A stretch of DNA of 64,000 nt, from the NCBI RefSeq assembly GCF_004634385.1, contig NZ_CP037895.1:2703245-2767244 (forward strand). Direction: 5' to 3'. The stretch is from Thermaerobacter sp. FW80 (GTDB lineage: Bacteria > Bacillota > Sulfobacillia > Thermaerobacterales > Thermaerobacteraceae). Both the position numbers and the translations under genes were made by a program. The notes below the pieces were generated by a model. The model saw only the letters and a program-made list of their open reading frames with translations. It did no database searches and was not told the origin of the DNA. Positions 4,886 to 37,993 of the stretch are shown here, one piece after another (within the stretch, counting starts at the first letter, position 1; every line of letters begins with the position of its first letter).

Positions 4886-5014
4886 GCGAAGAGGCGACCC
4901 GCCCTTTCGGGATGGGCTGCTGCGACGATGCGGCAGGCAATCCCCCGGAGGGGGGTCCCGTCCAGACGAACTCCGCCCGGAGCCGGAACCGGGCGGGAAA
5001 AAGGGGGAGCTACG

Positions 5015-6367: not shown

Positions 6368-6385
6368 GCGCCTAGCCCGGCGGGG

Positions 6386-6418
6386 GGGCGGGGGCTCGGG
6401 GGATACCGGCCCCCGCCC
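6386..6418 (+). terminator. Hairpin between binding-protein and permease genes
   Basis: A perfect 10-bp GC stem (GGGCGGGGGC at 6386-6395 pairs with 6409-6418) with a 13-base loop and no T run. It lies 18 bases after the binding-protein stop and 20 bases before the permease start. Such structures typically stabilise the upstream mRNA or reduce readthrough, giving excess binding protein over membrane subunits. Confidence 0.6.
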
Positions 6419-6438
6419 GCCCTGCCGGAAAGGAGGGG

Positions 6439-16095: not shown

Positions 16096-17521
16096 GGTGA
16101 CGTCCTAAACTGTCTGTAAACGCGAAGCGGTCTGGGCTACCATCGGTGGCGTCGGAAAACTCGCCCCAGCTGGGGCACACCGAGGAGGACCCAGACCTAT
16201 GTCCAGGATACCACCCAGCCAGCAGTTGGCGGAGCTGGCCCGGCAGCTGGCCGCGCAGGCCCGGGAGGGTACTGAGGTCGAGGACCTGACCCATGCCCTC
16301 GTCCGCCTGGGCGCCCGCAAGCTCATCCAGGAGCTGCTGGAGGCAGAGGTCACGGAGCTTTTGGGGCGCGGACGCTACGAGCGGCGCGAGCCTGGCCAGG
16401 AAGGCGCCCGCAACGGCTACAAGCCGCGGACGCTGCGTTGCGCCGAGGGGCGGCTCGAGATCGACGTCCCCCAGGTGCGGGGCATGGAGGGACTGTGCCA
16501 GCCCACGCTGTGGAGGGCCCTCAAGCGGCGGACGGACGTGCTGGAGCGCCTGGTGGTGGAGATGTACGCCCGGGGCCTCTCTAGCCGGGACATCGAGGAT
16601 GCGCTGGCGGAGCTGGCGGGCAGCGAAGCGCCGCTTTTGAGCCGGTCCACCGTGAGCCGGATCACCGAGGCGCTCCACGAGGAGTTCGAGGCCTTTGCCC
16701 AGCGGGACCTGTCAGGCCTCGACGTGGTGTACCTGTTCGCCGACGCCATCTACGAGTCGCTGCGCCGGCAGGCGGGCTGCCGTGAGGGCATCCTGGTCAC
16801 CTGGGCCATCTTGAGCGACGGCAGCAAGGTGCTGGTGCACCTGAGCCTGGGCAACAAGGAGCGCTACGAGGACTGGCTGGAGCACTTCCGGGATCTGGTG
16901 CGCCGGGGGCTGAAGACGCCGCTGACGGTGACGACGGACGGGGCGCCGGGGCTGATCCAGGCGGTGGAAGCCATGTGGCCGGAGGCGGAGCGCATCCGCT
17001 GCTGGGTGCACAAGATGCGGAACGTGCTGGACAAGGTGCCGGAGGAGGCGCGGCCCGTGCTCAAGCCCTACCTGGAGGCGATCCGGGACGCACCGGATAT
17101 CGAGCAGGGCCGGCGGCTGGTGGCCGAGGTGGTGGAGCGGTTCGGGCGGGAGTATCCCTCGGCCATGCGGAGCCTGCAGGAGGACCTGGAAGCGAGCCTG
17201 GCGCACCTGCGGCTACCCGCCGCCCACCGCAAGCATGTCCGGACCACCAACCTGGTGGAGCGCAGCTTCGAGGAGGAGCGGCGGCGCGCCAAGGTGATCC
17301 CGCGGTTTCGGAGCGAGCGGGAGTGCCTGAAGCTAGTCTTCGCCGTGCTGTGGCGGGCGAGTGAGCGCTGGCGGCGGGTGCAGTTCAGCGAGCACGAACG
17401 AAAGCAGCTGGAGCGCTACATCGAGGAGCGGCAACGGCAAAGAGCGGCGCAGAAAGAGGTTTCACCCGCTGCCACCGTGGCATGACCCAGACCGCTTTTA
17501 CAGACAGTTCGGGACTTGACC
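16096..17521 (+). mobile_element. IS256-family insertion sequence, single copy, inside a CRISPR repeat
   Basis: The ends carry inverted repeats (GTCCTAAACTGTCTGTAAA on the left, GTCCCGAACTGTCTGTAAA as the complement on the right). The flanks give a perfect 9-bp target duplication TTTCGGCCG at 16087-16095 and 17522-17530; joining them restores a normal repeat. The boundary could shift by one base with an 8-bp duplication. Its transposase runs opposite to array transcription. Confidence 0.9.
16199..17485 (+). CDS. IS256-family (mutator-type) transposase
   Basis: A full-length 428-aa DDE transposase. The catalytic residues sit in VVYLFADAIYESLR (first Asp), LTVTTDGAPGLIQAVEAMW (second Asp) and NLVERSFEEERRRAKVIPRF (Glu). 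ATG at 16199 follows GAGGAGG by about ten bases. It is the only coding region of the element at 16096-17521 and shows no frameshift, so the element may still be active. Sequence differs clearly from the other transposase in this array. Confidence 0.95.
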   Translation: MSRIPPSQQLAELARQLAAQAREGTEVEDLTHALVRLGARKLIQELLEAEVTELLGRGRYERREPGQEGARNGYKPRTLRCAEGRLEIDVPQVRGMEGLCQPTLWRALKRRTDVLERLVVEMYARGLSSRDIEDALAELAGSEAPLLSRSTVSRITEALHEEFEAFAQRDLSGLDVVYLFADAIYESLRRQAGCREGILVTWAILSDGSKVLVHLSLGNKERYEDWLEHFRDLVRRGLKTPLTVTTDGAPGLIQAVEAMWPEAERIRCWVHKMRNVLDKVPEEARPVLKPYLEAIRDAPDIEQGRRLVAEVVERFGREYPSAMRSLQEDLEASLAHLRLPAAHRKHVRTTNLVERSFEEERRRAKVIPRFRSERECLKLVFAVLWRASERWRRVQFSEHERKQLERYIEERQRQRAAQKEVSPAATVA

Positions 17522-18448
17522 TTTCGGCCGGGTGTGACCTGGCGCAATTATCCCGGTGGCGCGTCAAGGGCGAGTTTCAATCCTCACCCGGCCTTTCGGC
17601 CGGGTGTGACAGGGTGTATGTGGAGGAAGCGTATGGCGACATCCTGTTTCAATCCTCACCCGGCCTTTCGGCCGGGTGTGACTGGTGGAGCGGTACTACT
17701 TTGAGGGGCGGCCCCGGGTTTCAATCCTCACCCGGCCTTTCGGCCGGGTGTGACCCACTCCTTGAGCCCCGGGGCCGTGTCCATGGCCTCGTTTCAATCC
17801 TCACCCGGCCTTTCGGCCGGGTGTGACGATCTACGGGCGCTGTCCTACGACCCGCTGGAGTGGGTTTCAATCCTCACCCGGCCTTTCGGCCGGGTGTGAC
17901 CGGCTGGAGGGGACCGTCTCGTTCGCTGCCGTCCGGTTTCAATCCTCACCCGGCCTTTCGGCCGGGTGTGACGTAAGGTGATGGCGGAAAATGCGGCCCT
18001 GGAGCTGTTTCAATCCTCACCCGGCCTTTCGGCCGGGTGTGACACGCAGATGGCCGGTTCGACGGCCCGCAAGGGCAAGTTTCAATCCTCACCCGGCCTT
18101 TCGGCCGGGTGTGACACCCGCACCTGACCGTCGGCGACCACGGCGATACGTTTCAATCCTCACCCGGCCTTTCGGCCGGGTGTGACGTGATCCACGCCGG
18201 CGACCCGATCCCAGCCGAGGAGTTTCAATCCTCACCCGGCCTTTCGGCCGGGTGTGACCTTGGCGCCGACCGTTCTCGGAGATTTGCGCGAAGTTTCAAT
18301 CCTCACCCGGCCTTTCGGCCGGGTGTGACACTCCAGGCCATCGTGATGGTGAGACGGGCCTGCTCCACGTTTCAATCCTCACCCGGCCTTTCGGCCGGGT
18401 GTGACCACAGCGAGGGGTACTATTGGGGGATGCTGGCCCGGGTTTCAA
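17522..18448 (-). CRISPR. Array segment 4
   Basis: Twelve intact repeats (17574 to 18405) lie between the remnant of the repeat split by the IS256-family element (17522-17538) and the first seven bases of the repeat split by the IS21-family element (18442-18448). Confidence 0.95.
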
Positions 18449-18558
18449 TGTCATCGCCGGTGTTAAACTGACCCGGGATCGCCGGGTAAGAACTGACCCA
18501 CCCCCCAGCAAAGACACCTTCCGAATCCAGCCACGGAGCGGGAGGTGTCCTCGGCAAC

Positions 18559-19800
18559 ATGCTGGGAGGTGGGAAGGTGAAACGCTTATACGAGCTTCAT
18601 GGCGAGGGTCGGTCCATCCGGGAGATCGCGCGAATCCTCGGCATCTCCCGGAACACGGTGCGGCGGTACTTGCGCGCCACCGAGGTGCCCAAGCCGGCAC
18701 CTCGGGCGGCTCGCGGCTCGAAGCTCGACCCGTACAAAGAGTTTATCCTGCAACGGGTCGCGGAAGGTGTGGAAAACTGCGTCGTCCTTCTCCGCGAGCT
18801 GCGGACCCAGGGTTACGAGGGGGGCTACACCATCCTCAAGGAGTTCGTCCGGCCCCTGCGTCGCCCCCGATCCATCCCTGGCACGGTCCGGTTCGAGACG
18901 CAGCCAGGCCAGCAGGCGCAAGTGGATTGGGGCAGCTGTGCCTATACGCTGCCGGACGGCACGGTCCGGCGAAAGTGGGTCTTCGCGATGGTGCTCAGCT
19001 GGTCGCGGGCCCTGTACGTCGAGTTTGTCGACCGCGCCGACACCGCGACGTTCATCCGCTGCCATCTGAACGCGTTCCGGTACTTCGGCGGGGTACCGGA
19101 AACGTGCCTGTACGACCGGACCAAGCTGGTGGTGTTGGGGCTGGACGAGAACGGCGAGCCCAAGTGGAATGAACGCTTTCTGGACTTTGCCCTGCGGCTG
19201 GGTTTTGCCATCCGGCTCTGCCAGGGCTACCGCCCCCAGACCAAGGGCCGGGTGGAAAGCGGCATCAAGTACGTCAAGGGCAACTTCTGGCCCGCGGTTC
19301 GGTTCACGGATCTGGATGACCTGAACCGGCAGGCACTGGCGTGGTGTGATACCGTGGCCAACGTCCGCATCCACGGCACCACCCATGAGCGGCCCGTGGA
19401 CCGGTTGGCGATCGAACGAGGGGCCTTGCGGCCGTTGCCCCCGCAGGAGCGGCTGAGGCCCTGGCTGCGCGAGCAGCGACAGGTGGGCCGGGACGGTTAC
19501 GTGCAGTGGGAACGGGCGTGGTACGGCCTGCCGTGGCCCTGGCGGCCCGGCCAGCTCGTCCAGGTCCAGCCGGGCGAGGGCGTGGTCGAGCTCTGGGTCG
19601 GTGACCAGCGGGTGGCGGTGCATCCCCGGGCCCTCCGGCCGGGCCAGCGCTTCACGCACCCGCAGCAGTGGGCGGGGTTGTCCGCGAAGAGTGGCCGCCC
19701 GCGGCCGGAGCCCCGGGCGGTGCAATGGCCCACGGTGGAAGTCGAGCGACGGTCTTTGAGCACCTACGGGGCTCTGGTCGAGGCGGTGAGTCGGCGATGA
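18559..19800 (+). CDS. istA: IS21-family transposase IstA
   Basis: An N-terminal helix-turn-helix (SIREIARILGISRNTVRRYL) is followed by a retroviral-integrase-like DDE core: QAQVDWGSCAYTL (first Asp), CLYDRTKLVVL (second Asp) and KGRVESGIKYVKGNFWP (Glu). IstA binds the element ends and joins strands, with IstB as its ATPase partner. The length, 413 aa, is typical. GTG at 18577 with GGGAGG seven bases upstream is an equally good start. Its stop overlaps the istB start by four bases. Confidence 0.95.
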   Translation: MLGGGKVKRLYELHGEGRSIREIARILGISRNTVRRYLRATEVPKPAPRAARGSKLDPYKEFILQRVAEGVENCVVLLRELRTQGYEGGYTILKEFVRPLRRPRSIPGTVRFETQPGQQAQVDWGSCAYTLPDGTVRRKWVFAMVLSWSRALYVEFVDRADTATFIRCHLNAFRYFGGVPETCLYDRTKLVVLGLDENGEPKWNERFLDFALRLGFAIRLCQGYRPQTKGRVESGIKYVKGNFWPAVRFTDLDDLNRQALAWCDTVANVRIHGTTHERPVDRLAIERGALRPLPPQERLRPWLREQRQVGRDGYVQWERAWYGLPWPWRPGQLVQVQPGEGVVELWVGDQRVAVHPRALRPGQRFTHPQQWAGLSAKSGRPRPEPRAVQWPTVEVERRSLSTYGALVEAVSRR

Positions 19801-20597
19801 TCGCCCTGGAGAAGGCCCGGCAGTACCTGGAGCAGCTGGGCTTGAGCCACGCGGCGGCGGTTCTCGAAAGCCGCCTGGAGGCCGCCGCCCAGAAGCAGCT
19901 CCCCTACCCCGACTTCCTCGTGGACCTGCTGGGCCTCGAGGCGGCGGCGCGCCGGGAGCGCTACCTGCGGACACGGACACGACTGGCGCATTTGCCCTTT
20001 CACCGCACCCTGGAGCAGTTCGACTTCGGGTTCCAGCCGTCCGTCGACGAGCGCCAGATTCGCGAGCTGGCTACCCTCGCCTTCGTCGCCGACGCCGCCA
20101 ATGTGATCTTCCTCGGACCACCAGGCGTGGGCAAAACCCACCTGAGTGTGGCTCTCGGGATCAAGGCGATCGAGGCCGGCTATGGGGTGTACTTCGTGCG
20201 GGCTCACGAGCTGCTCGAAGACCTGCGCCGCGCCCAAGCCGAGCACCGACTCGACCGGCGCATGCGAGTCTACCTGGCCCCCAAGGTGCTGATCATCGAC
20301 GAATTCGGGGTCTGGCCCTACGACCGGGCTGCGGCGACCGCCCTGTTCGCCTTGATCTCGGCCCGTTATGAACGGGGCAGCATCATCTTGACCAGTAACA
20401 AGGGCTTTGCCGAGTGGGGCGAAGTGTTGGGTGATTCGGTGATCGCCACCGCCATCCTCGACCGGTTGCTTCACCACAGCCACGTCATCAACATCCGGGG
20501 CGAGAGCTACCGGCTTCGGGAGAAGAAGCGGGCAGGACTGTTCGGCGGGACCCCACCCCGAAGGGAGGTGATGCCACAGGACGGCTCTGCGGAGTAA
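19797..20597 (+). CDS. istB: IS21-family helper ATPase IstB
   Basis: A DnaC-like AAA+ ATPase of 266 aa: Walker A FLGPPGVGKTHLSVALG, Walker B VLIIDEFGVWPYDR and a sensor segment SIILTSNKGFAEWGEVLGD. IstB helps the transposase choose and load on target DNA. ATG at 19797 overlaps the istA stop (ATGA), so the two are translationally coupled. The C-terminus continues close to the element end. Confidence 0.95.
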   Translation: MIALEKARQYLEQLGLSHAAAVLESRLEAAAQKQLPYPDFLVDLLGLEAAARRERYLRTRTRLAHLPFHRTLEQFDFGFQPSVDERQIRELATLAFVADAANVIFLGPPGVGKTHLSVALGIKAIEAGYGVYFVRAHELLEDLRRAQAEHRLDRRMRVYLAPKVLIIDEFGVWPYDRAAATALFALISARYERGSIILTSNKGFAEWGEVLGDSVIATAILDRLLHHSHVINIRGESYRLREKKRAGLFGGTPPRREVMPQDGSAE

Positions 20598-20664
20598 GTG
20601 ACCCAAAGGGGTGGGTCAGTTTCCAACCGGCGCCAAGTGGGTCACTTCTAGGTCGGCGTTGACA

Positions 20665-20972
20665 TCAATCCTCACCCGGCCTTTCGGCCGGGTGTGACGG
20701 AACTCGAAACTGTAGAGGACCCGACCGGTCAGGGTTTCAATCCTCACCCGGCCTTTCGGCCGGGTGTGACCCCGCATTTCCGGTCCAATCCCATCCCTCC
20801 CACTAAGTTTCAATCCTCACCCAGCCTTTCGGCCGGGTGTGACGCCGCCGCTGTAGAGCCCCATGGCCGACAACGCCAGTTTCAATCCTCACCCGGCCTT
20901 TCGGCCGGGTGTGACGCCCACAGCTCTTGTCCAAAGAAGTAGCCGAGGAACGTTTCAATCCTCACCCGGCCT
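20665..20972 (-). CRISPR. Array segment 3, between IS21 and IS256 copy A
   Basis: Only three intact repeats (20734, 20807, 20879) remain here, flanked by the remnant 20665-20698 on the IS21 side and 20952-20972 on the IS256 side. The repeat at 20807 has one substitution in the stem (CCAGCC for CCGGCC). Confidence 0.95.
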
Positions 20973-22387
20973 GGCCGTGTCCCGGCAAGTGGTGGAAAAG
21001 CGGCTCCCCCTCGGGTTCCATGGGCTTACCTCGCTGCAACAGCCAAGGCGCTTACCGAGTCACTCCCCAACGCGTCACCGCCCTTGAGCTTCGCCATCGA
21101 CGCCTGGCTAAAGTACCGCCGCTGCACCAGCCACTCGTCCTGCTGCTCCTCCAGCAGCGCACCCAGCAGGCGCAGCACCGCCGCCACGTTCGGGAAGATG
21201 CCCACCACGTCGCACCGCCGCGCCAGCTCGCGGTTCAGCCGCTCCAGGACGTTCGTCGAGTGGATCCCCCGCCAGTGCTCCGGCGGGAAGTCCATGTAGG
21301 CCAAAACCTCCTCCGCGGCCTCCCGCAGCAGGCTCGCCACCTGGGGGAACCGCCGCTCCAAGTTTGCCGCCACCTGCTCCAGCTGCTGCCGAGCCGAGGC
21401 ACGGTCCGGCTGGGCGAAGATGGTCCGTACCAGCGCTGCCACCATGGACTGGGCGTGCTTGGGCACCCGCGCCAGCAGGTTCCGCATGAAGTGCACCCGG
21501 CACCGCTGCCACGTGGCGCCTGCCAGCACCTCACCGATGGCTCGCTTGAGGCCCTCGTGGGCGTCCGAGATCACCAGCCGCACGCCCTTCAGCCCCCGGG
21601 CCACCAGGCGACGTAGGAAGTCCAGCCAGAACTCGTACGTCTCGGCCGCGCCCACGTCGAACCCCAGGACCTCCCGTTCCCCTGTCTCCCGCACACCCAC
21701 GGCGATCACGGCCGCCATGTTCACCACCCGTCCGTCTTGCCGCACCTTCACCGCCTTGGCGTCCAGCCACACGTAGGGGTACTCGCCTTCCAGCGGCCGG
21801 TTCCGAAAGCGCTCCATGTGCTCGTCCAGCTCGGCGCAGATGCGGGAGACCTCGCTCTTGCTCAAGCCCCCGACGCCCAGCGCCTGGACCAGCTCGTCCA
21901 CCTTGCGCGTGCTCACCCCGTGCACGTAGGCCTCCTGCACCACGGCCAGCAAGGCCCGCTCCGCGCGCCGCCGCGGCTTCAAGAGGCTGGGGAAGTAGCT
22001 GCCGCGGCGTAACTTCGGGATCTGCAGCTCGATGGTGCCCACGCGCGTGTCCCAGCGCCGGGGGCGGTACCCGTTTCGGTAGGTAGTGCGCGACGGGGTG
22101 CGCTCGTAGCGCTGGGCGCCGATGAGTTCGCTGACCTCGACCTCCATCAGCTGCTGGGCGAGCCAGCGCAGGCCCTCCCGCAGGGCGTCGACCTCGGGCT
22201 CGCCCTGGTACTGGCGCAGCAGTTCGAGAAGTGCCATCCTGAAGTCAGCGGTCACCGGTGGTCCGACCTCCCTTCGTGCTCGGGTTTGTCCAACCCGAAG
22301 GGAAGCCGCCGGTGACCGCTGCTGTCAACGGCCACCAGCCACGCCTAAACCCTGGCCGGAAAGTCCACCACTACCCGGGACTTTAAC
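20973..22387 (-). mobile_element. IS256-family element, copy A, inside a CRISPR repeat
   Basis: A 1415-bp element starting GGCCGTGTCCCGGCAAGTGG and ending in the complement of GTTAAAGTCCCGGGTAGTGG. It is flanked by a perfect 8-bp duplication CCCGGCCT (20965-20972 and 22388-22395); removing it restores a normal repeat. It differs from copy B at 27581-28995 by two substitutions that I can see (near 21053, synonymous, and near 22285, non-coding), so one was copied recently. The non-coding side near 22270-22305 has a CGGGTT/AACCCG hairpin. Confidence 0.95.
21026..22255 (-). CDS. IS256-family transposase, copy A
   Basis: A full-length 409-aa mutator-type transposase. Catalytic residues: Asp in YPYVWLDAKAVKVRQDGRVV, Asp in RLVISDAHEGLKRAIGEVLA, Glu in NVLERLNRELARRCDVVG. 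The CxxH-like segment CRVHFMRNLLARVPKH between the second Asp and the Glu is also family-typical. Read in the same direction as the CRISPR array. The protein is identical to that of copy B. Confidence 0.95.
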   Translation of the reverse strand: MTADFRMALLELLRQYQGEPEVDALREGLRWLAQQLMEVEVSELIGAQRYERTPSRTTYRNGYRPRRWDTRVGTIELQIPKLRRGSYFPSLLKPRRRAERALLAVVQEAYVHGVSTRKVDELVQALGVGGLSKSEVSRICAELDEHMERFRNRPLEGEYPYVWLDAKAVKVRQDGRVVNMAAVIAVGVRETGEREVLGFDVGAAETYEFWLDFLRRLVARGLKGVRLVISDAHEGLKRAIGEVLAGATWQRCRVHFMRNLLARVPKHAQSMVAALVRTIFAQPDRASARQQLEQVAANLERRFPQVASLLREAAEEVLAYMDFPPEHWRGIHSTNVLERLNRELARRCDVVGIFPNVAAVLRLLGALLEEQQDEWLVQRRYFSQASMAKLKGGDALGSDSVSALAVAAR

Positions 22388-25300
22388 CCCGGCCTTTCGG
22401 CCGGGTGTGACAGGCCAAGGGTATCGTGCATTACACGGGCGACCTGTTTCAATCCTCACCCGGCCTTTCGGCCGGGTGTGACCGCATCGTGCTGCTGTAC
22501 CTCTACCGCATGGCGGGTTTCAATCCTCACCCGGCCTTTCGGCCGGGTGTGACGGGCCGAGCAGGGTCTGAACGGGCCGGGCGAGGAGGTTTCAATCCTC
22601 ACCTGGCCTTTCGGCCGGGTGTGACGCCCAGGCGATCCGTCAGAAGGTGCTGGAGGGCCACCTGTTTCAATCCTCACCCGGCCTTTCGGCCGGGTGTGAC
22701 CCCTGAAGTTGGGGCGCAAGTTCGTGGGCATCGAGCTGTTTCAATCCTCACCCGGCCTTTCGGCCGGGTGTGACGGTCCAAAGCCGGGGCCAGGTCATGT
22801 ACGGCCAGGTGTTTCAATCCTCACCCGGCCTTTCGGCCGGGTGTGACCCGCAATGGCGTGGTGCCAGACGATGTATCCCGCAAGTTTCAATCCTCACCCG
22901 GCCTTTCGGCCGGGTGTGACACGAGGGCGGGCACGTCCTCGCGGGCATGGGCGATGTTTCAATCCTCACCCGGCCTTTCGGCCGGGTGTGACCACCTCGG
23001 TCAGGGACTTAATCTGGTTGCGCCCGAAGTTTCAATCCTCACCCGGCCTTTCGGCCGGGTGTGACCCCTTCTCCTGCATGTCGTTCTCCAGCCACCTGGG
23101 TTTCAATCCTCACCCGGCCTTTCGGCCGGGTGTGACGGCCGAGTGGGAGGAGGGGTTGCGGAGGTGGCATGTTTCAATCCTCACCCGGCCTTTCGGCCGG
23201 GTGTGACCGCAACCGCCAGAAGATCAAGGTTCGCTGGTCGGAGTTTCAATCCTCACCCGGCCTTTCGGCCGGGTGTGACGCGCCAGCTGCCGCCGGCTCT
23301 GCTCCAGGCTGTAGTTTCAATCCTCACCCGGCCTTTCGGCCGGGTGTGACTCCACCGGCTTGGGTCGAGCGGTTGCCCGTCGTTGTTTCAATCCTCACCC
23401 GGCCTTTCGGCCGGGTGTGACTCGCCAAGACGATCCGGGAGCGGGTGCCGGCCGGGTTTCAATCCTCACCCGGCCTTTCGGCCGGGTGTGACTCACGCGA
23501 CCTGCGCTATTCCAACCCCCGCAGGATGTTTCAATCCTCACCCGGCCTTTCGGCCGGGTGTGACTTCTCCCCCCGGAAGACCCAATAGCCTTCGCGCATG
23601 TTTCAATCCTCACCCGGCCTTTCGGCCGGGTGTGACACGGCTGGGCGGTGTTCGAACCTCACGTAGTATGCGTTTCAATCCTCACCCGGCCTTTCGGCCG
23701 GGTGTGACACACGTGGGAGGCCTACATTGCGAAGTACGACCAAGCGTTTCAATCCTCACCCGGCCTTTCGGCCGGGTGTGACTCCACCTTTCTTGCCAGC
23801 CGTCGCGCCCGCCGCAGGTTTCAATCCTCACCCGGCCTTTCGGCCGGGTGTGACTCGATCACGTCCGCGATGGGCAGCTTGTAGCTGCCGTTTCAATCCT
23901 CACCCGGCCTTTCGGCCGGGTGTGACGTGATCGTCAAGGGCGCCTTCGCCAAGACCATTCGCGTTTCAATCCTCACCCGGCCTTTCGGCCGGGTGTGACC
24001 TGCCGGAGCGGGTGACTTGTTCCGGCGGTCATTGGTTTCAATCCTCACCCGGCCTTTCGGCCGGGTGTGACGCATGCTTGGGATGCTCACTGAAGCGGTC
24101 ATCCACGCGTTTCAATCCTCACCCGGCCTTTCGGCCGGGTGTGACCTGGCTGGACGTCATCCGGCGGCTGCGCGATGAGGTTTCAATCCTCACCCGGCCT
24201 TTCGGCCGGGTGTGACCACAAGGGCGGGCACGTCCTCGCGGGCGTGGGCGATGTTTCAATCCTCACCCGGCCTTTCGGCCGGGTGTGACGCTCGCGGCTT
24301 CCGGCGGGATGTCGATCCCATCGCGTTTCAATCCTCACCCGGCCTTTCGGCCGGGTGTGACCCGCACGTCCGAACGAATGATCTCAAAGCCGATGGAGTT
24401 TCAATCCTCACCCGGCCTTTCGGCCGGGTGTGACCGATCAGCGAGGCGATCTTACCCCACAGCCATAACTTGTTTCAATCCTCACCCGGCCTTTCGGCCG
24501 GGTGTGACGCTCGCAGACGGCGGGCCGAATGTCGCGAATCGCGTTTCAATCCTCACCCGGCCTTTCGGCCGGGTGTGACCACCTGACCCGGGTGTCGGTG
24601 CAGCTGCACGAGGTGGTGTTTCAATCCTCACCCGGCCTTTCGGCCGGGTGTGACCCCACTTCTCGCGCATCTCCTCCACCCACTGCCGCGTTTCAATCCT
24701 CACCCGGCCTTTCGGCCGGGTGTGACTCGACAGTCGTGCCGGGTTGATTCTGCGCCGGCGCGGGCGTTTCAATCCTCACCCGGCCTTTCGGCCGGGTGTG
24801 ACATTACTCGCCCCCGTAATGGCCTTGATGCGGTTCGCGTTTCAATCCTCACCCGGCCTTTCGGCCGGGTGTGACTGGCGTCGGAGACGGGGACCAATGC
24901 AAGCCTGCTCCGGTTTCAATCCTCACCCGGCCTTTCGGCCGGGTGTGACTCGCTACTGGCTGGCGCACATCGATGGGGCGCTGGAGTTTCAATCCTCACC
25001 CGGCCTTTCGGCCGGGTGTGACCCGACGGTGCCGATGCCACCGAAGCCCGTCCGGCTCAGTTTCAATCCTCACCCGGCCTTTCGGCCGGGTGTGACTGTA
25101 TGACTCGCCGTTCGTCCCGGGCCTGCCGAGCGAGGTTTCAATCCTCACCCGGCCTTTCGGCCGGGTGTGACCCGGCCACCCTGAGCAAGTACGAGCGGGG
25201 CGTGCTGGTTTCAATCCTCACCCGGCCTTTCGGCCGGGTGTGACTGCGCGCGCGTGCGCGCGTACGCGTCTACGCTCAAGTTTCAATCCTCACCCGGCCT

Positions 25301-27580
25301 TTCGGCCGGGTGTGACTCTTCGACGATGCGCGCCGGGTTTGGCATCACGCGTTTCAATCCTCACCCGGCCTTTCGGCCGGGTGTGACGACATCGCCGCCG
25401 CGTGGCAGGTGGTGGAGGAGATGTTTCAATCCTCACCCGGCCTTTCGGCCGGGTGTGACGCTATGACACGGCGGCGCTCCAGATCGTCGTGCGGGGTTTC
25501 AATCCTCACCCGGCCTTTCGGCCGGGTGTGACGCGCACCGGCGACGACAGCAGGAACACGCCCAGGGGGTTTCAATCCTCACCCGGCCTTTCGGCCGGGT
25601 GTGACCACGACGGCCCGGGCGTACACGCTCCAGAACCTGCAGTTTCAATCCTCACCCGGCCTTTCGGCCGGGTGTGACGAGCAGGTGCCGGGCTGCCCGG
25701 CGCTTCTGCTCGGTTTCAATCCTCACCCGGCCTTTCGGCCGGGTGTGACGCAGCGGCCTGATTCCCATCGCGGCAGTTCACGCTGTGGTTTCAATCCTCA
25801 CCCGGCCTTTCGGCCGGGTGTGACGGGCAATGTTGATGCGGGCCGTGCTGTTCGCCAGGTTTCAATCCTCACCCGGCCTTTCGGCCGGGTGTGACGCGGC
25901 GCGTACTCGCCGCTCTCGATCTCCCGCCGGGTGTTTCAATCCTCACCCGGCCTTTCGGCCGGGTGTGACGGCACAGGGGCTTCTGGCCGCCGCGGCCGCG
26001 ATGGCGGTTTCAATCCTCACCCGGCCTTTCGGCCGGGTGTGACTTGACCTCGTCCACGGTCATGTAGAGGGCCTTGCGTTTCAATCCTCACCCGGCCTTT
26101 CGGCCGGGTGTGACCCGCTCGCAGACGGCGGGCCGAATGTCGCGAATCGCGTTTCAATCCTCACCCGGCCTTTCGGCCGGGTGTGACGCCCGACATTCGG
26201 CCCGTCGCGTACCAGCAGCGGTTGTTTCAATCCTCACCCGGCCTTTCGGCCGGGTGTGACGGCCCATGCGTCGTCATCGCGGGGGCGGGGTCCGGGTTTC
26301 AATCCTCACCCGGCCTTTCGGCCGGGTGTGACTGTTACCCCGGACGCCCTCGTACTTGGCCTCGATGCGTTTCAATCCTCACCCGGCCTTTCGGCCGGGT
26401 GTGACAAAGGGCCGACGATACCCACCCTACGTGCGGCGCGGTTTCAATCCTCACCCGGCCTTTCGGCCGGGTGTGACGACCACCCCCTTCCACGGTCGCT
26501 GTGCGGGGGGCGGTTTCAATCCTCACCCGGCCTTTCGGCCGGGTGTGACGTGTTGGTTGCGGGATCGTACTCTTCGTTGGTGGAGTTTCAATCCTCACCC
26601 GGCCTTTCGGCCGGGTGTGACCAGCGGCTCGTTCGTTGGGCCCAACAAGACGCCAAGTTTCAATCCTCACCCGGCCTTTCGGCCGGGTGTGACGCACCGG
26701 CCCTTTGACCGATGCCCCCGGCACGGCAGGGTTTCAATCCTCACCCGGCCTTTCGGCCGGGTGTGACCTCTTCGTCGGTAAGTTTGATGCGATCGTCGAA
26801 CTCGTTTCAATCCTCACCCGGCCTTTCGGCCGGGTGTGACTCCACCGCCGTGGCTCACCGTGGCTGGGCGTGGCTGTTTCAATCCTCACCCGGCCTTTCG
26901 GCCGGGTGTGACGTCGGTGCGGTTTCTGGACAAGCCTAGGGCGGTGGAGTTTCAATCCTCACCCGGCCTTTCGGCCGGGTGTGACGGCGTGGCCTATGAG
27001 TATCGCGTCGTGGCCATCGGTGTTTCAATCCTCACCCGGCCTTTCGGCCGGGTGTGACATTGAGCTTGTGGGCAAGGTGGCCGAATGGGTCAGGTTTCAA
27101 TCCTCACCCGGCCTTTCGGCCGGGTGTGACCGGACGATCCCGACGCGGACACGTTCGAGAGACTGAAGTTTCAATCCTCACCCGGCCTTTCGGCCGGGTG
27201 TGACTCGAGCGTTGCATGTCAGACGAAACAATGGTGGCTGTTTCAATCCTCACCCGGCCTTTCGGCCGGGTGTGACGCCCCCGGCTGAGGGTGACGTGTA
27301 CATGGTGGACGAGTTTCAATCCTCACCCGGCCTTTCGGCCGGGTGTGACGACCTGCCCCGTAGGGTACAGCGAGCCGGTGATGAGGTGTTTCAATCCTCA
27401 CCCGGCCTTTCGGCCGGGTGTGACCGGCAGGAGACGGCGGCACGCCAACCGCAAGACGATGTTTCAATCCTCACCCGGCCTTTCGGCCGGGTGTGACCCC
27501 TAATTTGGCCACAGAGCGGCGTTTCCCAAAGTGTTTCAATCCTCACCCGGCCTTTCGGCCGGGTGTGACGCCGAAAGCGC
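22388..27580 (-). CRISPR. Array segment 2, 71 repeats bracketed by twin IS256 copies
   Basis: It contains 71 intact repeats (22446 to 27533), plus the repeat remnant 22388-22411 and the first 11 bases of an interrupted spacer at its two ends. This is the largest unbroken block of spacers. Spacer 24509-24542 is contained whole in spacer 26115-26150, and spacers 22921-22955 and 24217-24252 are near-identical. The repeat at 22589 has one substitution (ACCTGG). Confidence 0.97.
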
Positions 27581-28995
27581 GGCCGTGTCCCGGCAAGTGG
27601 TGGAAAAGCGGCTCCCCCTCGGGTTCCATGGGCTTACCTCGCTGCAACAGCCAAGGCGCTCACCGAGTCACTCCCCAACGCGTCACCGCCCTTGAGCTTC
27701 GCCATCGACGCCTGGCTAAAGTACCGCCGCTGCACCAGCCACTCGTCCTGCTGCTCCTCCAGCAGCGCACCCAGCAGGCGCAGCACCGCCGCCACGTTCG
27801 GGAAGATGCCCACCACGTCGCACCGCCGCGCCAGCTCGCGGTTCAGCCGCTCCAGGACGTTCGTCGAGTGGATCCCCCGCCAGTGCTCCGGCGGGAAGTC
27901 CATGTAGGCCAAAACCTCCTCCGCGGCCTCCCGCAGCAGGCTCGCCACCTGGGGGAACCGCCGCTCCAAGTTTGCCGCCACCTGCTCCAGCTGCTGCCGA
28001 GCCGAGGCACGGTCCGGCTGGGCGAAGATGGTCCGTACCAGCGCTGCCACCATGGACTGGGCGTGCTTGGGCACCCGCGCCAGCAGGTTCCGCATGAAGT
28101 GCACCCGGCACCGCTGCCACGTGGCGCCTGCCAGCACCTCACCGATGGCTCGCTTGAGGCCCTCGTGGGCGTCCGAGATCACCAGCCGCACGCCCTTCAG
28201 CCCCCGGGCCACCAGGCGACGTAGGAAGTCCAGCCAGAACTCGTACGTCTCGGCCGCGCCCACGTCGAACCCCAGGACCTCCCGTTCCCCTGTCTCCCGC
28301 ACACCCACGGCGATCACGGCCGCCATGTTCACCACCCGTCCGTCTTGCCGCACCTTCACCGCCTTGGCGTCCAGCCACACGTAGGGGTACTCGCCTTCCA
28401 GCGGCCGGTTCCGAAAGCGCTCCATGTGCTCGTCCAGCTCGGCGCAGATGCGGGAGACCTCGCTCTTGCTCAAGCCCCCGACGCCCAGCGCCTGGACCAG
28501 CTCGTCCACCTTGCGCGTGCTCACCCCGTGCACGTAGGCCTCCTGCACCACGGCCAGCAAGGCCCGCTCCGCGCGCCGCCGCGGCTTCAAGAGGCTGGGG
28601 AAGTAGCTGCCGCGGCGTAACTTCGGGATCTGCAGCTCGATGGTGCCCACGCGCGTGTCCCAGCGCCGGGGGCGGTACCCGTTTCGGTAGGTAGTGCGCG
28701 ACGGGGTGCGCTCGTAGCGCTGGGCGCCGATGAGTTCGCTGACCTCGACCTCCATCAGCTGCTGGGCGAGCCAGCGCAGGCCCTCCCGCAGGGCGTCGAC
28801 CTCGGGCTCGCCCTGGTACTGGCGCAGCAGTTCGAGAAGTGCCATCCTGAAGTCAGCGGTCACCGGTGGTCCGACCTCCCTTCGTGCTCGGGTTCGTCCA
28901 ACCCGAAGGGAAGCCGCCGGTGACCGCTGCTGTCAACGGCCACCAGCCACGCCTAAACCCTGGCCGGAAAGTCCACCACTACCCGGGACTTTAAC
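27581..28995 (-). mobile_element. IS256-family element, copy B, inside a CRISPR spacer
   Basis: Same 1415-bp element as copy A. Here the 8-bp duplication is GAAAGCGC (27573-27580 and 28996-29003) and the insertion is inside a spacer: joining the flanks restores a 36-base spacer that starts GCCGAAAGCGC and ends GAAGAGTGC. It lies only 14 repeats from the leader, so it arrived after most of the array had formed. Confidence 0.95.
27634..28863 (-). CDS. IS256-family transposase, copy B
   Basis: Protein identical to copy A over all 409 residues, with the same DDE residues. It is oriented with the array, so transcripts from the leader pass through it in sense, and any readthrough from its own promoter would enter the spacers of segment 2. 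Confidence 0.95.
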   Translation of the reverse strand: MTADFRMALLELLRQYQGEPEVDALREGLRWLAQQLMEVEVSELIGAQRYERTPSRTTYRNGYRPRRWDTRVGTIELQIPKLRRGSYFPSLLKPRRRAERALLAVVQEAYVHGVSTRKVDELVQALGVGGLSKSEVSRICAELDEHMERFRNRPLEGEYPYVWLDAKAVKVRQDGRVVNMAAVIAVGVRETGEREVLGFDVGAAETYEFWLDFLRRLVARGLKGVRLVISDAHEGLKRAIGEVLAGATWQRCRVHFMRNLLARVPKHAQSMVAALVRTIFAQPDRASARQQLEQVAANLERRFPQVASLLREAAEEVLAYMDFPPEHWRGIHSTNVLERLNRELARRCDVVGIFPNVAAVLRLLGALLEEQQDEWLVQRRYFSQASMAKLKGGDALGSDSVSALAVAAR

Positions 28996-30002
28996 GAAAG
29001 CGCTGCCGAGCCCGCCGACGAAGAGTGCGTTTCAATCCTCACCCGGCCTTTCGGCCGGGTGTGACGCGACATTGGTGCCGTTATGCCGACCACGGTCCTG
29101 TTTCAATCCTCACCCGGCCTTTCGGCCGGGTGTGACCGGCTTGGCGCAAGGCGCGGGGTGAGGCCTCGTGAGGTTTCAATCCTCACCCGGCCTTTCGGCC
29201 GGGTGTGACTCCTGGACACCGACAGCAACGGGGACGGGATTGCGTTTCAATCCTCACCCGGCCTTTCGGCCGGGTGTGACGCGCCGTATAGCGTGCAATC
29301 CTCGGTAGTGTCCGTGTTTCAATCCTCACCCGGCCTTTCGGCCGGGTGTGACGGTAATAGTCGTCGCGCAACTTTCGTTCTAACTCCCGTTTCAATCCTC
29401 ACCCGGCCTTTCGGCCGGGTGTGACTGTACCATCACGGAGGGGGTGTGGGTATGAGCCAGTTTCAATCCTCACCCGGCCTTTCGGCCGGGTGTGACGCGG
29501 CTTCCGCGACGGCCTGCGCCCGGTGCTCTCGGTTTCAATCCTCACCCGGCCTTTCGGCCGGGTGTGACCGGCGGAGAGAGCTCACGATCCTGGGGGTGGT
29601 GGTGTTTCAATCCTCACCCGGCCTTTCGGCCGGGTGTGACCTCCCGCCGGTCCCGGATCACGGCCAGCCGCAGGTTTCAATCCTCACCCGGCCTTTCGGC
29701 CGGGTGTGACGCCGCGCTATGCGACGTGCTCGCAAGCGTCCACCGGTTTCAATCCTCACCCGGCCTTTCGGCCGGGTGTGACCTACAACACCAAGGCCAT
29801 TCTTGTGGATGCCAACGGGTTTCAATCCTCACCCGGCCTTTCGGCCGGGTGTGACGGCAAGGCCCAGGTGACACATACAGGGTTCGGCAAGTTTCAATCC
29901 TCACCCGGCCTTTCGGCCGGGTGTGACGCCCGTGGCCGAGGACGGCTCGGAACCCGGCGACGAGAGTTTCAATCCTCACCCGGCCTTTCGGCCGGGTGTG
30001 AC
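28996..30002 (-). CRISPR. Array segment 1 (newest, leader-proximal)
   Basis: Fourteen intact repeats from 29029 to 29966, all identical in sequence as far as I can read. The leader-proximal repeat is 29966-30002. The spacer at the distal edge is the one split by IS256 copy B. Confidence 0.97.
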
Positions 30003-30236
30003 GGCGCGGGGGGAAAAGGCCCATCGCGCTTGAACTCCTCGACCCAATTGCGCGAACCCCGTCTGAAATCTCTGTATCGGAAGCGCCCATCCTCAACCAT
30101 CGCGTCACAAACCCTTGTTTCATAAGGCTTTTCGCGCCCCGCGAACCTCCCGGGGTTTCCGTGATCACTGGGGGTTCGCGCACCCCATCATGGCCACGGT
30201 GACCAGACTCTGTTTGCCCCGGGGATCTCCGCATGG
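30003..30236 (-). promoter_or_regulatory. CRISPR leader between cas2 and the first repeat
   Basis: A 234-bp non-coding stretch that should hold the array promoter and the spacer-integration signals. It is richer in A+T than the genes. Two overlapping inverted repeats stand out: TTCGCG-CCC-CGCGAA at 30131-30145, and CGCGAACC...GGTTCGCG at 30140-30180 whose arms continue through CCC/GGG after one mismatch. The shared CGCGAA means only one can form at a time. The first may end the cas2 transcript. Confidence 0.75.
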
Positions 30237-30539
30237 CTATACAATGAGCGGATCCTCGAAATCGATGTAGCGGTCGATTCCGTGAACCCTTACGAGGCGG
30301 TTCCGATCCCCCGGTAGAATGTAAATGCGCAGGCTGTCCTTCTTCCCATCGATGATCTTCACCAGCCTTGCCTCGAGTTCTTCCAACTGGGCCTGTGTTA
30401 CGCGACATTCAAAGAGGGATTTCTGGACCCTTTGCCCAAAGCCGGTACAAACGCGGGCCACACGTCGCAACCGCCGTTGTCCCTCTTTCGTTTCTGTGTT
30501 CACGTCATATGCAACCAGTATGTCCACGACATCCTTCAC
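30237..30539 (-). CDS. cas2: CRISPR-associated endoribonuclease-fold protein Cas2
   Basis: A 100-aa Cas2. The first beta strand is VDILVAYDVN with the conserved Asp; YILPGDRNRLVRVHGIDRY lies near the end. Two Cas2 form the centre of the Cas1-Cas2 integrase that inserts spacers at the leader end. It is the last gene of the operon, ten bases after the cas1 stop, and sits directly before the leader. Confidence 0.97.
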   Translation of the reverse strand: MKDVVDILVAYDVNTETKEGQRRLRRVARVCTGFGQRVQKSLFECRVTQAQLEELEARLVKIIDGKKDSLRIYILPGDRNRLVRVHGIDRYIDFEDPLIV

Positions 30540-30550
30540 CTCTAGGGTCC

Positions 30551-31570
30551 TTACCGAATGCTGTACGGAACGTACTTCGGGGTGTCGCCGCGCAGGAACC
30601 GCGCCAGCAAGCGTGCCTGGACATAGGGGACGAGCCCGATGGGTATGCGCTGTTCTAGAAGTGGATGGGTGACTTCCTCCTGTTTGCGTCGCTGATACGC
30701 ATCCAAGAATACTCGCCTGGCGTCATCCTTGAGGACGACAGCACCACCCGGCCGAACGTCGAAGTCCCCCGGCTGAACCTGACGACGGTTGACCAGACTC
30801 AGAACCAAGCGATCGGCGAGCACACTTCGGAACTCTTCCGCAAGATCAAGTGCGAGTGACGGACGGCCCGGCCGGAGGGCATGCAGATAGCCAACCTGGG
30901 GATCTAGTCCCGCACCCTCGCAGGCCGCGACACAGTCACTGACGAGCAACGCGTAGGCAAAGGAGAGGAGTGCATTGATCGGGTCGCGGGGTGGACGCCG
31001 GCTGCGCGCCGTCCAGACGAAATCGCCACGAATCAGGTGTCCGAGTGCAGTGAAGTAGATATGCGCACCACGCCCCTCCACACCCCGCACCCCATCCAGT
31101 GACGATGCCCGTTGGACTTCGTTAACAAGGACTTGCAGGTTGTCCGCCGCCTCCTCGATCGCTGGTACAGAGCCCTGAAGGTCACGCAGCCCCCGAAGCA
31201 GGACCTGACGTGAATTTTTAAGTTTGCCCGATACGATACACCGGGCAAGATGCAAGGTGCGGCCAGGATCGCTCAACACCTCGTGCTGCGCGCGGCGCAA
31301 TAGTACGTTGCCCGACGTTGGGCCCTGGAGGCGGCCCACGAATCGTCCCGATGCCGAAAACCACACGATAAACCGGCCATCTTCCGCAAATCGTTGAATG
31401 AGATAAGGACTCACCAAGACATTGCCAAACACCACTACGCCCCCAAGATGGTGCAAGGGCACCTGCAGCCTGACCTCTTCTTCAACCTCCACCCGGACCG
31501 TATCCTGATAAAGGTGGATATACGCACCTTGGGTTTGGACGTAGAGCGTGTTGAGGATCACGTGGGTCAC
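30551..31570 (-). CDS. cas1: CRISPR integrase Cas1
   Basis: A 339-aa subtype I-C Cas1. The metal-site residues can be placed at Glu165 (GVRGVEGRGAHIYF), His230 (GYLHALRPGRPSLALDL) and Asp242/Glu245 (ALDLAEEFR). With Cas2 it integrates spacers. The start is the GTG at 31570, which overlaps the cas4 stop within ATGTGA and begins at the family N-terminus THVILNTLYVQTQGAY; a longer open frame upstream only overlaps cas4 and is rejected. Confidence 0.97.
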   Translation of the reverse strand: MTHVILNTLYVQTQGAYIHLYQDTVRVEVEEEVRLQVPLHHLGGVVVFGNVLVSPYLIQRFAEDGRFIVWFSASGRFVGRLQGPTSGNVLLRRAQHEVLSDPGRTLHLARCIVSGKLKNSRQVLLRGLRDLQGSVPAIEEAADNLQVLVNEVQRASSLDGVRGVEGRGAHIYFTALGHLIRGDFVWTARSRRPPRDPINALLSFAYALLVSDCVAACEGAGLDPQVGYLHALRPGRPSLALDLAEEFRSVLADRLVLSLVNRRQVQPGDFDVRPGGAVVLKDDARRVFLDAYQRRKQEEVTHPLLEQRIPIGLVPYVQARLLARFLRGDTPKYVPYSIR

Positions 31571-32187
31571 ATGGACTCGCTCCCATAATCCCCGGCGATA
31601 GAGCGACGTATAGCAAATGGAAGGCACACATCCAAGAGTGAGCAGTGGCGGCAACGGCGGTCTGCGGCCGGTGCCGGAAGCCGCTGCTGCCGCAACAGTA
31701 GTCGAACCTGCTGCGTCACCCGCTCCACCTCCTCGCGCAGGGACGGGGTGAACGCGATTTCTCGTCGTCTCCTGCCGCCATGGTAGTACAGGGCGCCACG
31801 GGGTACGGGTCGTCCAAACATCTCCTCCAAGCAGATGGCTTGAGCGCAAAGTTGCACCTCGTCGGCCCGGCGAGCCAATCGGGGACCCGATTTGTACTCA
31901 ACCGGAAACGGCGTGCCGTCGGGGAGAAACTCGACGACGTCAGCCTGCCCGATCAGGCCAAGCCTCTCCGACCAGATCGGCAAGGCCCGCTCCACCCGCA
32001 CTCCCTCGCGAACCATCGTCCCGGGTGTATCGGCACGCTCGTGCACACGCCGACCACGCAGTGTGAAGACATTCTCCCCCCAGGCGCGCTCGACGTGGAT
32101 CAGGGCACACTGCCGGGGGCAGTACACGTAGTGCTGTAGGGCGCTGACAGGCACTGGCTCGTCATCCGAGACGGTTCCTGAATGCAC
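31567..32187 (-). CDS. cas4: CRISPR-associated exonuclease Cas4
   Basis: A Cas4 of about 206 aa with a RecB-like nuclease fold and an Fe-S cluster. Cysteines: Cys23 and Cys27 in YVYCPRQCALIHVE, and two or three in CRHCSLLDVCLP near the C-terminus. Nuclease residues appear in GQADVVEFL (Asp) and FPVEYKSG (Glu, Lys). In type I-C it trims pre-spacers and checks the PAM with Cas1. GTG at 32187 is chosen because GAGGGGAG lies six bases upstream; GTG at 32205 is possible. Confidence 0.95.
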   Translation of the reverse strand: MHSGTVSDDEPVPVSALQHYVYCPRQCALIHVERAWGENVFTLRGRRVHERADTPGTMVREGVRVERALPIWSERLGLIGQADVVEFLPDGTPFPVEYKSGPRLARRADEVQLCAQAICLEEMFGRPVPRGALYYHGGRRRREIAFTPSLREEVERVTQQVRLLLRQQRLPAPAADRRCRHCSLLDVCLPFAIRRSIAGDYGSESM

Positions 32188-32215
32188 CCGCTTCTCCCCT
32201 CTCACTGGGCAGAAG

Positions 32216-32269: not shown

Positions 32270-33190
32270 CTACGGCTCCACCAACACGCTCAGAGTGACC
32301 CCCGGGGGCAGGTCGTCGCGTTGGATGACCACCGCATAATCGTGGTACCCTCGGGGCACCGACACCCCGTCACGCCGCCTGACCGTCACAAGGTCAAATA
32401 GCTTGTGTGCCGGCGCATTTCCCTTGGGGTTGTCATGGGTGAAGACGATCAGGCCGCGGACATGCATCTCCCCACGGGCCGCCGAGCGGTCGAACTCGAA
32501 CAGGTTCTGCAGCGCCTCCCACAGTACCTCGAGATCCTCCTGGCTCACACCCGTCTGCGTGGCAAGATACGGGTTGAAATATCCATGGGCTCTATACAGG
32601 CCGTATGGAATGATGGGCTTCCGGCCCATCTCCGTTGTAGTGGTAAGTGCTCGGCCTGCTTTGGCACTCCTCGTTTCCCTAGCTTCCCTACGCTGCTCGC
32701 TCGTGATAGCTTGCCGTGTAATCGCAAGATCCAGCGGCAATACAGGGTCGATCGACCGAGCGAAGGTGATCTGGACGGGTCCACGTACCTGCCCTGCATT
32801 CAATGTACCCGTGGATAGCACCGCACCAAACATGCGGATATCGTAATATCGGTGACAAAGCTCCTTGCGAACCTTTTCGTTCTCCGTCTTGCTCTCCACG
32901 ACACCGACGGCTTTTCCAGCATCTTGAATAAGCATATTAAGTGGGGTCCTGCTTTGGATAAATATATCGAACCCGGATTGCGCCTCTCTGTCATTGGACA
33001 GGCGCGTCAACTGCAGGTAGTCCCTTATTTTTCGCTTTAGCGCGACATCTGTGACCAGTCCGTGCATGGTCTCTGGGTCGACCCGGGGCATGTTGCCGGC
33101 GTCGGGATCACCATTGGGATTGCTGTTCTTTGCATCAAACAACAAGACGAATTCGTGCCGCTTCGTCGGGTCGGTGTACACCATGGTCAC
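32270..33190 (-). CDS. cas7: Cascade backbone protein Cas7 (Csd2), type I-C
   Basis: Cas7c polymerises along the crRNA to form the Cascade backbone. The N-terminus FVLLFDAKNSNPNGDPDAGN is highly characteristic, as is the segment DIRMFGAVLSTGTLNAGQVR with the family GPVQ. The 306-aa length is typical. GTG at 33190 overlaps the cas8c stop; ATG at 33184 is an alternative. The family normally needs several copies per complex, which fits the stabilising hairpin just after the stop. Confidence 0.97.
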   Translation of the reverse strand: MTMVYTDPTKRHEFVLLFDAKNSNPNGDPDAGNMPRVDPETMHGLVTDVALKRKIRDYLQLTRLSNDREAQSGFDIFIQSRTPLNMLIQDAGKAVGVVESKTENEKVRKELCHRYYDIRMFGAVLSTGTLNAGQVRGPVQITFARSIDPVLPLDLAITRQAITSEQRREARETRSAKAGRALTTTTEMGRKPIIPYGLYRAHGYFNPYLATQTGVSQEDLEVLWEALQNLFEFDRSAARGEMHVRGLIVFTHDNPKGNAPAHKLFDLVTVRRRDGVSVPRGYHDYAVVIQRDDLPPGVTLSVLVEP

Positions 33191-33570
33191 TCCGTACCCC
33201 CTTCGTCCCTGTTCCTGCGGCGCTCGGCCCTGAAGGCCGCGCGTTGGTGGTAGAAGCCCAACCCGAACTCCGCCTGTTCCGCAAGGCTCAATGTGCGCGG
33301 GAAGCCACCCGCTTCGTCGAGGCAGGACATCACCTCTTCCACCAGTTGGTTGAGCTCCTTGCCTGTTTCCGGCAAGTGTGCGGTCGTTGCCAATCGGATC
33401 AGCCCCCCAAAGGTCGCCGCTGGAGCCGTAGAGGCCGCTCCATAGAACCGTTCAACCAGCGTGCGGTTCAGATTGAAGTTGGCAGCCCGGAGCTGGGCCT
33501 CTTCGAGAATGGCCAGGAGCCGGCCGCACAGGTAGGCCGCGCTTCTGAAGGTGGTATCGAGCGTGCTCAT
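33187..33570 (-). CDS. cas11c: Candidate Cas11c small subunit, internal start within cas8c
   Basis: In several type I-C systems a separate small subunit is translated from an internal start in cas8c. Here an in-frame ATG at 33570 (MSTLDTTFRSAAYLCGRLLA) is preceded by an excellent ribosome site, GGAAAGGAGGAGGT with seven bases to the ATG, deep inside cas8c where none is needed. The product would be 127 aa, mostly helical, matching the known size. Production of the protein is inferred by analogy. Confidence 0.75.
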   Translation of the reverse strand: MSTLDTTFRSAAYLCGRLLAILEEAQLRAANFNLNRTLVERFYGAASTAPAATFGGLIRLATTAHLPETGKELNQLVEEVMSCLDEAGGFPRTLSLAEQAEFGLGFYHQRAAFRAERRRNRDEGGTE

Positions 33571-35010
33571 CCGCTCGACCTCCTCCTTTCCATGCCACAG
33601 GCTGAGTTTGACCGCGCTCGCCGCCGCGTGCAAGCGCCAGGCGTCACCCGGATCCTGCAGAATGCGGGGGTTGCGCAGGACGGCGACGCCCAGCGCCAAC
33701 AGGACCGTGGGGGGCCGTGCCCCGGTGAAGGCCGTACGCAACAGACCGCGCCCCACGTTCGGGTTGTCCGTGCCCAAGCCGCCGATGAGGCTGCCGATGG
33801 ACAGGGGTCGGGGCGGGTCACCGAAGGGCGAGACAATGCGGACAGCCTCCAGAAAGCGGCGCAGGTGTTCCTTGAACGCTACCAGAGAAACCTGGATCCA
33901 TTCGCGAAGAGCGACGCGCCCCACGTTAGGGGAGACGACGCCGAGGTAAAACGCATAGTCATCGAGCCGGAGCGCAGCGTCCGATGGCTTCCAGGGCTGC
34001 CTGAGGAGCTCCAGGAGCTGGGACGGCGTCGCCTCCGGAGCCGGCTGCCGGGCACGGCTGGCCTCCAGTACCGCACCCCAATCGACCGCTGTCAGGTCCC
34101 CGAGGTCCAGCACGCGGTCGCCGACCTCGACGGGCGCGGGTGCCTTGACCCAGAAGACCGCCACCTGGTTGCCCAGGCCCTCGCCTTGCTGCGCGTCCCG
34201 GGTGAGCGTCCGGTGGTGCTGTTCGGAGGCGACAAGGTGGTTGAAGGCCCGGGCCGCAGTGTCGCCACATCGGAAGCATACACCCAAGTGCGCCCGCTTG
34301 AACGTGTCGCCACCGGCGTAGAACGAAGTGAATGCGTCCGCGTTGAGCGAGTGCAGGGGTTTCGGCCTTTGCCCCGGCAGCTTGACTCCCAGGGGGATCC
34401 TGCCTACCAGCGGCTGCACCTCACCGCAGACGGCGCATTGACCGGATATGCGAGACCGTCTGCCGACATCGCCCGGATCGGTCCGTCGCTCAAGCTCGAC
34501 CACCCAAAAGGCCACTGCCTCCCGGTGTTCGAACAGGTGCGTCCCGGCCAGGGGGCCGGTCTCGGGGACGAACGACACCCAGTCCTTGGCGAGGATCTCC
34601 GGGTAACGCGGATCCTGACGAACGAGGCCGTTATCCAACGCCCGGCATAGCCACTCAAGCGTTTCCCGCAACGCCGGGTCCTGTAGGCCGTCCCAGGCAC
34701 GGAACGCGTCCACCAACTTACGGAAGGCAGTATGCTTATCCCGGACGTGCTTATCCTCACCACCACCCTTCTGCTTGCTCACGCCCAACGCATAGGCCGC
34801 CTCGTCGACCAGCAAGTGCGCCTGGATACCGGACGTTCGGCCTGCGTATGGACGTGGTAGGTAGAGTTCAGCTGCTTCCAGATACACGCGGTCTGGCCAG
34901 AGATGGACAATCCATTTGACCGGTTCGCTGTAGTCTCCATAGAACCCCGTCGGCGGGAGAGCGCCCTGTTCCTCCAACTGCTTGCCTAACACGACCAGTT
35001 CCCTAAACAT
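33187..35010 (-). CDS. cas8c: Cascade large subunit Cas8c (Csd1)
   Basis: The 607-aa large subunit recognises the PAM and helps recruit Cas3. N-terminal YGDYSEPVKWIVHLWPDRVY and the CRS-like segment FAVCGEVQPLV-type CAVCGEVQPLVGRIPLG with paired CRFCGD-like cysteines (CFRCGDTAARAFNHL) are visible. It starts 8 bases inside the end of cas5c and ends overlapping cas7, so all three are coupled. The C-terminal 127 residues also form the candidate Cas11c. Confidence 0.95.
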   Translation of the reverse strand: MFRELVVLGKQLEEQGALPPTGFYGDYSEPVKWIVHLWPDRVYLEAAELYLPRPYAGRTSGIQAHLLVDEAAYALGVSKQKGGGEDKHVRDKHTAFRKLVDAFRAWDGLQDPALRETLEWLCRALDNGLVRQDPRYPEILAKDWVSFVPETGPLAGTHLFEHREAVAFWVVELERRTDPGDVGRRSRISGQCAVCGEVQPLVGRIPLGVKLPGQRPKPLHSLNADAFTSFYAGGDTFKRAHLGVCFRCGDTAARAFNHLVASEQHHRTLTRDAQQGEGLGNQVAVFWVKAPAPVEVGDRVLDLGDLTAVDWGAVLEASRARQPAPEATPSQLLELLRQPWKPSDAALRLDDYAFYLGVVSPNVGRVALREWIQVSLVAFKEHLRRFLEAVRIVSPFGDPPRPLSIGSLIGGLGTDNPNVGRGLLRTAFTGARPPTVLLALGVAVLRNPRILQDPGDAWRLHAAASAVKLSLWHGKEEVERMSTLDTTFRSAAYLCGRLLAILEEAQLRAANFNLNRTLVERFYGAASTAPAATFGGLIRLATTAHLPETGKELNQLVEEVMSCLDEAGGFPRTLSLAEQAEFGLGFYHQRAAFRAERRRNRDEGGTE

Positions 35011-37886: not shown

Positions 37887-37993
37887 CGACCACCACCCCC
37901 CAACCGGCACCCCGCGGCTCGCTGTGAGTCGGGCATCTGGCCAGGGCTATTGAACCTGCACCCGGGTCACCGCGATGACCCCATCGCCCCGCT

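Follow-up and report, generated by a model that had tools for sequence, protein, structure and literature searches.

A protospacer very probably acquired twice, with a shared PAM end and unequal distal ends, in the type I-C CRISPR array of Thermaerobacter sp. FW80

The type I-C CRISPR array of Thermaerobacter sp. FW80 carries one spacer sequence twice, once at 34 nucleotides (nt) and once at 36 nt, in copies that coincide at one end and differ by two bases at the other. The best reading of this pair, which we hold with high confidence, is that the same protospacer was acquired independently on two occasions. It is a clear new example of a phenomenon known from earlier reports on Legionella (type I-C) and Thermus. 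All coordinates given here refer to a 64,000-nt stretch of contig NZ_CP037895.1 (the window).

The window contains a complete type I-C CRISPR-Cas locus with all cas genes on the minus strand, in the order cas3, cas5c, cas8c, cas7, cas4, cas1 and cas2, followed by the leader and the array (Table 1). The type I-C signature profiles TIGR01863, TIGR02589 and TIGR01876 all score above cut-off, and cas3, cas4, Cas1c (TIGR03640) and cas2 are also present; cas1 is a long open reading frame started by TTG, with its Cas1 domain starting at about residue 98. On the plus strand the 37-nt repeat has the sequence GTTTCAATCCTCACCCGGCCTTTCGGCCGGGTGTGAC, and its minus-strand form ends in GGATTGAAAC; 126 repeats were found genome-wide with up to three mismatches allowed, all of them inside the array. 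The 124 intact spacers are 33–39 nt long. The minus strand encodes the crRNAs, whose 5′ ends correspond to the high-coordinate ends of the spacers. Because the leader lies beyond the high-coordinate end of the array and is kept in the sister genome G001, new spacers enter at this end, the young one. The G001 array (L074, G001:C1:1085001-1100000) has the same repeat and leader and no spacer in common with the array of the window.

The array has been interrupted at four places by insertion sequences, three of IS256 (Mutator) type and one of IS21 type, and it still borders a complete cas operon. Two of the IS256 copies (20968-22374 and 27570-29028), one of which interrupts a repeat and the other a spacer, are identical over at least 1,233 consecutive bases, which points to recent insertion.

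Table 1 Features of the type I-C locus in the window; older and younger refer to the presumed order of capture, judged by position relative to the leader.
Feature	Coordinates	Strand	Remarks
Type I-C CRISPR array	14252..30002	-	129 full or partial 37-nt repeats, 124 intact spacers
Mutator/IS256-type element	16104-17573		interrupts array
IS21-type element (istA/istB)	18406-20661		interrupts array
IS256-family copy	20968-22374		near-identical to 27570-29028
Second pair, older member, 35 nt	22921..22955	-	reads IAHAREDVPALV
Spacer against prohead protease gene of related prophages	23422..23455	-	target overlaps that of 23927-23962
Spacer against same prohead protease site	23927..23962	-	shifted 19 nt, from diverged relative
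Second pair, younger member, 36 nt	24217..24252	-	same PAM end
Repeated spacer, older copy, 34 nt	24509..24542	-	plus strand: GCTCGCAGACGGCGGGCCGAATGTCGCGAATCGC
Repeated spacer, younger copy, 36 nt	26115..26150	-	plus strand: CC + same 34 nt
IS256-family insertion	27570..29028	-	inside a spacer, flanking repeat CGAAAGCGC
Leader, ~230 bp	30003..30236	-	conserved in sister genome G001
cas2	30237..30539	-	TIGR01573
cas1 (type I-C Cas1c)	30551..31849	-	TIGR03640
cas4	31567..32205	-	TIGR00372
cas7 (csd2)	32270..33190	-	TIGR02589
cas8c (csd1)	33187..35010	-	TIGR01863
cas5c (cas5d)	35003..35692	-	TIGR01876
cas3 (HD nuclease + helicase)	35706..37910	-	TIGR01587, TIGR01596

As an earlier note on this DNA had described, the 34-nt spacer at 24509-24542, whose crRNA on the minus strand is GCGATTCGCGACATTCGGCCCGCCGTCTGCGAGC, lies wholly inside the 36-nt spacer at 26115-26150, with the extra CC at the low-coordinate end. 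This is the only exact duplicate among the 124 intact spacers, and it is not a product of chance, since the top pair score in 40 dinucleotide-preserving shuffles of all spacers was at most 15, compared with 34 for the repeated pair. In the whole genome (3.04 Mb, three contigs) the sequence occurs at these two sites only, with up to three mismatches allowed. Counted from the leader over intact spacers only, the copies rank 55th (24509-24542) and 33rd (26115-26150); the distance of 21 repeats given earlier is therefore right for the intervening spacers, of which there are 21, and one short for the repeats, of which there are 22. As the leader-proximal copy, 26115-26150 would be the later capture.

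Duplication is the commonest origin of repeated spacers: in an analysis with SpacerPlacer, 695 of 805 duplicated spacers were assigned to duplications and 15 to reacquisitions or independent insertions (PMC11472070). Base rates thus favour duplication, yet we gave the local evidence more weight. Duplication is also seen in sister genome G001: each of two spacers there has a second copy right beside it and of the same length (34/34), the pattern that repeat-mediated duplication leaves. The pair described here contrasts with this pattern, being unequal in length, separated and flanked by unrelated spacers on both copies; duplicated neighbours, which the earlier note had named as the sign of a segmental duplication, were not found. 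The probability that two randomly chosen spacers of the array are of different length is 0.77, so unequal lengths are normal for two acquisitions, while duplication needs an extra mutation. After a segmental duplication through recombination or slippage between repeats, the remaining units of the duplicated block would have to disappear, and two bases would have to be inserted where the spacer of one copy meets the repeat. The last step is formally possible, as the extra CC adjoins the C that ends the repeat, but the scenario requires three events, is at odds with the lack of any shared neighbour and leaves unexplained a second PAM-anchored pair (below), whose synonymous substitutions are as expected between two phages. 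We consider it very improbable. The earlier argument that a length difference speaks for two integrations rather than array duplication gains support from the unduplicated neighbours and from this second pair, and two independent acquisitions remain our preferred reading.

To assess the PAM, we sought protospacers in genomes from the genus, family and class to which the strain belongs; prophages of related genomes proved to hold diverged protospacers for several other spacers of the array. Of the nine best protospacers (identity ≥86%), five have TTC immediately next to the crRNA 5′ end, namely those of the spacers starting at 26913 (36 nt), 14289 (39 nt), 22626 (38 nt), 23855 (35 nt) and 23709 (37 nt); given how frequent TTC is in such phage DNA, the binomial P is about 1e-8. 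In a control with reversed spacers, the protospacer search gave no match above 75%. As the spacers with an adjoining TTC range from 35 to 39 nt, acquisition in this array is exact at the PAM end and variable at the distal one. These TTC motifs, and a leader at the high-coordinate end, bear out the earlier placement of the two extra bases at the PAM-distal end with the crRNA 5′ ends shared. Comparison of all spacers in the register of the PAM end returned two outlier pairs (100% and 94%), followed by a third-best pair at 58%, whereas in the register of the distal end no pair exceeded 58%. The nearest known targets are phage-like regions or prophages with several diverged protospacers: L057 (G004:C141), L055 and L056 (G002) and L059 (G083).

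The second outlier pair consists of spacers 22921..22955 and 24217..24252, which are identical at 33 of 35 positions, the longer having one extra base at its distal end. Both differences are synonymous (CAT/CAC and CTC/CTT) and the extra base carries the reading frame on. The pair encodes IAHAREDVPALV, a conserved motif of phage proteins phrog_722/phrog_1667; in 13 of the 19 IMG/VR contigs matching it, the codon just before it is TTC (Phe). The second pair is one site captured from two diverged phages, and it demonstrates that same-site capture with distal-end variation does occur in this array. In addition, four spacers (22626-22663, 23422-23455, 23855-23889 and 23927-23962) match the prohead protease gene in relatives' prophages (L055, L059), and two of them (23422-23455 and 23927-23962) overlap with an offset and differ by synonymous changes; together these matches support repeated encounters with a group of related phages.

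The earlier note had proposed looking in virus and plasmid databases for the protospacer of the repeated spacer and an adjacent TTC. We ran this search across IMG/VR, GTDB genomes, INPHARED, PLSDB and about 540 genomes from the phylum, and none of them yielded the protospacer; as most spacers of the array are likewise matchless, its absence says little. Exact 21-mers of the repeated spacer had no match in IMG/VR or GTDB genomes, four scans with codon-degenerate patterns, which covered three reading frames and included one scan for spacer 26188, were equally negative, and translated comparison with relatives' prophages revealed no homologue of the repeated spacer's target. A route to more phages through the portal protein led to one IMG/VR contig only, mostly the same sequence as a known prophage. 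Several weak candidates were set aside. A 19-mer common to the repeated spacer and its neighbour is present in three related IMG/VR contigs, where the rest matches poorly and no TTC flanks it, and was attributed to chance; weak plasmid matches and one weak phage match (OR003939, 81.6%, E = 0.4) were at chance level. By extension from the other spacers of the array, TTC probably lies beside the protospacer of the repeated spacer, and the extra CC of 26115-26150 was presumably templated by the invader. Inside the array the spacer is preceded by AAC, not TTC, so that self-copying from the array would have to proceed without a PAM. A form of the repeated spacer that can be searched for in metagenomes is TTCGCGATTCGCGACATTCGGCCCGCCGTCTGCGAGCGG.

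The leader-side neighbour of the younger copy, spacer 26188..26223 (minus strand), matches it at 16 of 17 nt in opposite orientation, and 0.075 such matches are expected per shuffled spacer set. This is suggestive of a spacer that may target the homologous site of a diverged phage, or the match may be due to chance.

On the preferred reading of two independent acquisitions, the Cas4-Cas1-Cas2 of the locus would have captured one protospacer on two occasions, from one invader or from two invaders identical at the captured site. A cut beside TTC would have set one end of the spacer each time, and loose trimming of the opposite end would have yielded 34 and 36 nt. In the type I-C system of Bacillus halodurans, Cas4-Cas1-Cas2 makes a precise Cas4 cut at the PAM; Cas4 leaves the PAM-distal end untouched (PMC6519985). 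Such behaviour accounts for one fixed and one variable spacer end here, although the evidence from Bacillus halodurans is in vitro biochemistry and ours consists of array data.

Why the site was captured twice is a separate matter. The earlier note held that the first spacer had failed or been silent and that the same invader was then encountered a second time. Re-acquisition does need invader DNA inside the cell, and the IS256 element at 27570..29028 now sits between the leader and both copies, but that insertion could date from any time. The copies are identical over 34 nt, which indicates a target unchanged inside the protospacer between captures and gives no sign of escape mutation. Acquisition during active interference is, moreover, normal in type I: in a native type I system, spacers come mainly from invaders under active cutting (PMC5059440). 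We therefore regard failure or silence of the first spacer as unlikely, and the claim as unsupported. A second capture needs no more than random re-sampling from a small pool of related phages. Birthday arithmetic gives 0.9–1.8 expected same-site pairs if 124 spacers come from 5–10 phages, assuming even sampling, phages of about 43 kb and TTC at the observed density, and the pair counts are compatible with chance re-sampling of about 5–10 phages. A stronger proposal is that a small co-evolving group of head-tail phages was re-sampled with protospacer choice hot-spotted well beyond chance; one exact pair, one diverged same-PAM pair and overlapping or clustered prohead protease targets can be cited for it, and we think it distinctly improbable.

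The two acquisitions could also have taken place in different cells or lineages and been joined by array-array recombination, or one could have been inserted ectopically, away from the leader. The 126 nearly identical repeats offer ample homology for recombination, and ectopic acquisition is documented in other systems (PMC7999890). Against this route, G001, the only close relative with the same repeat, has no spacer in common with the array, and we judge it rather improbable. Were it true, the distance between the copies would tell nothing about time, and because recombination or ectopic insertion could set that distance, the spacing is weak evidence of the time between captures.

Independent acquisition of one site has been described before. 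In Legionella pneumophila type I-C, two independently acquired spacers matched one protospacer in a priming experiment, and natural arrays also hold the same or overlapping spacers (PMC5071653). The PAM is written there as GAA, the complement of TTC (PMC5071653). The Legionella invaders are known (a plasmid and LME-1), whereas here the databases searched yielded no invader for the pair; conversely, our case displays the difference in length in a naturally formed array. In Thermus, seven spacer pairs were judged to be independently acquired on the ground that their members belong to different system types or overlap in part, and its I-C repeat, with a TTC PAM, is very similar to the repeat found here (PMC6452258). 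The Thermus pairs span genomes or systems, while both copies described here are within one array.

Same-site pairs of unequal length show directly which end of a spacer the PAM sets, and they constitute a clean natural record of repeated acquisition. Their number also gives a rough size for the pool of targets met by the lineage: one or two pairs among 124 spacers correspond, with wide error, to ~4,000–8,000 PAM sites, or about 5–9 phage genomes' worth.
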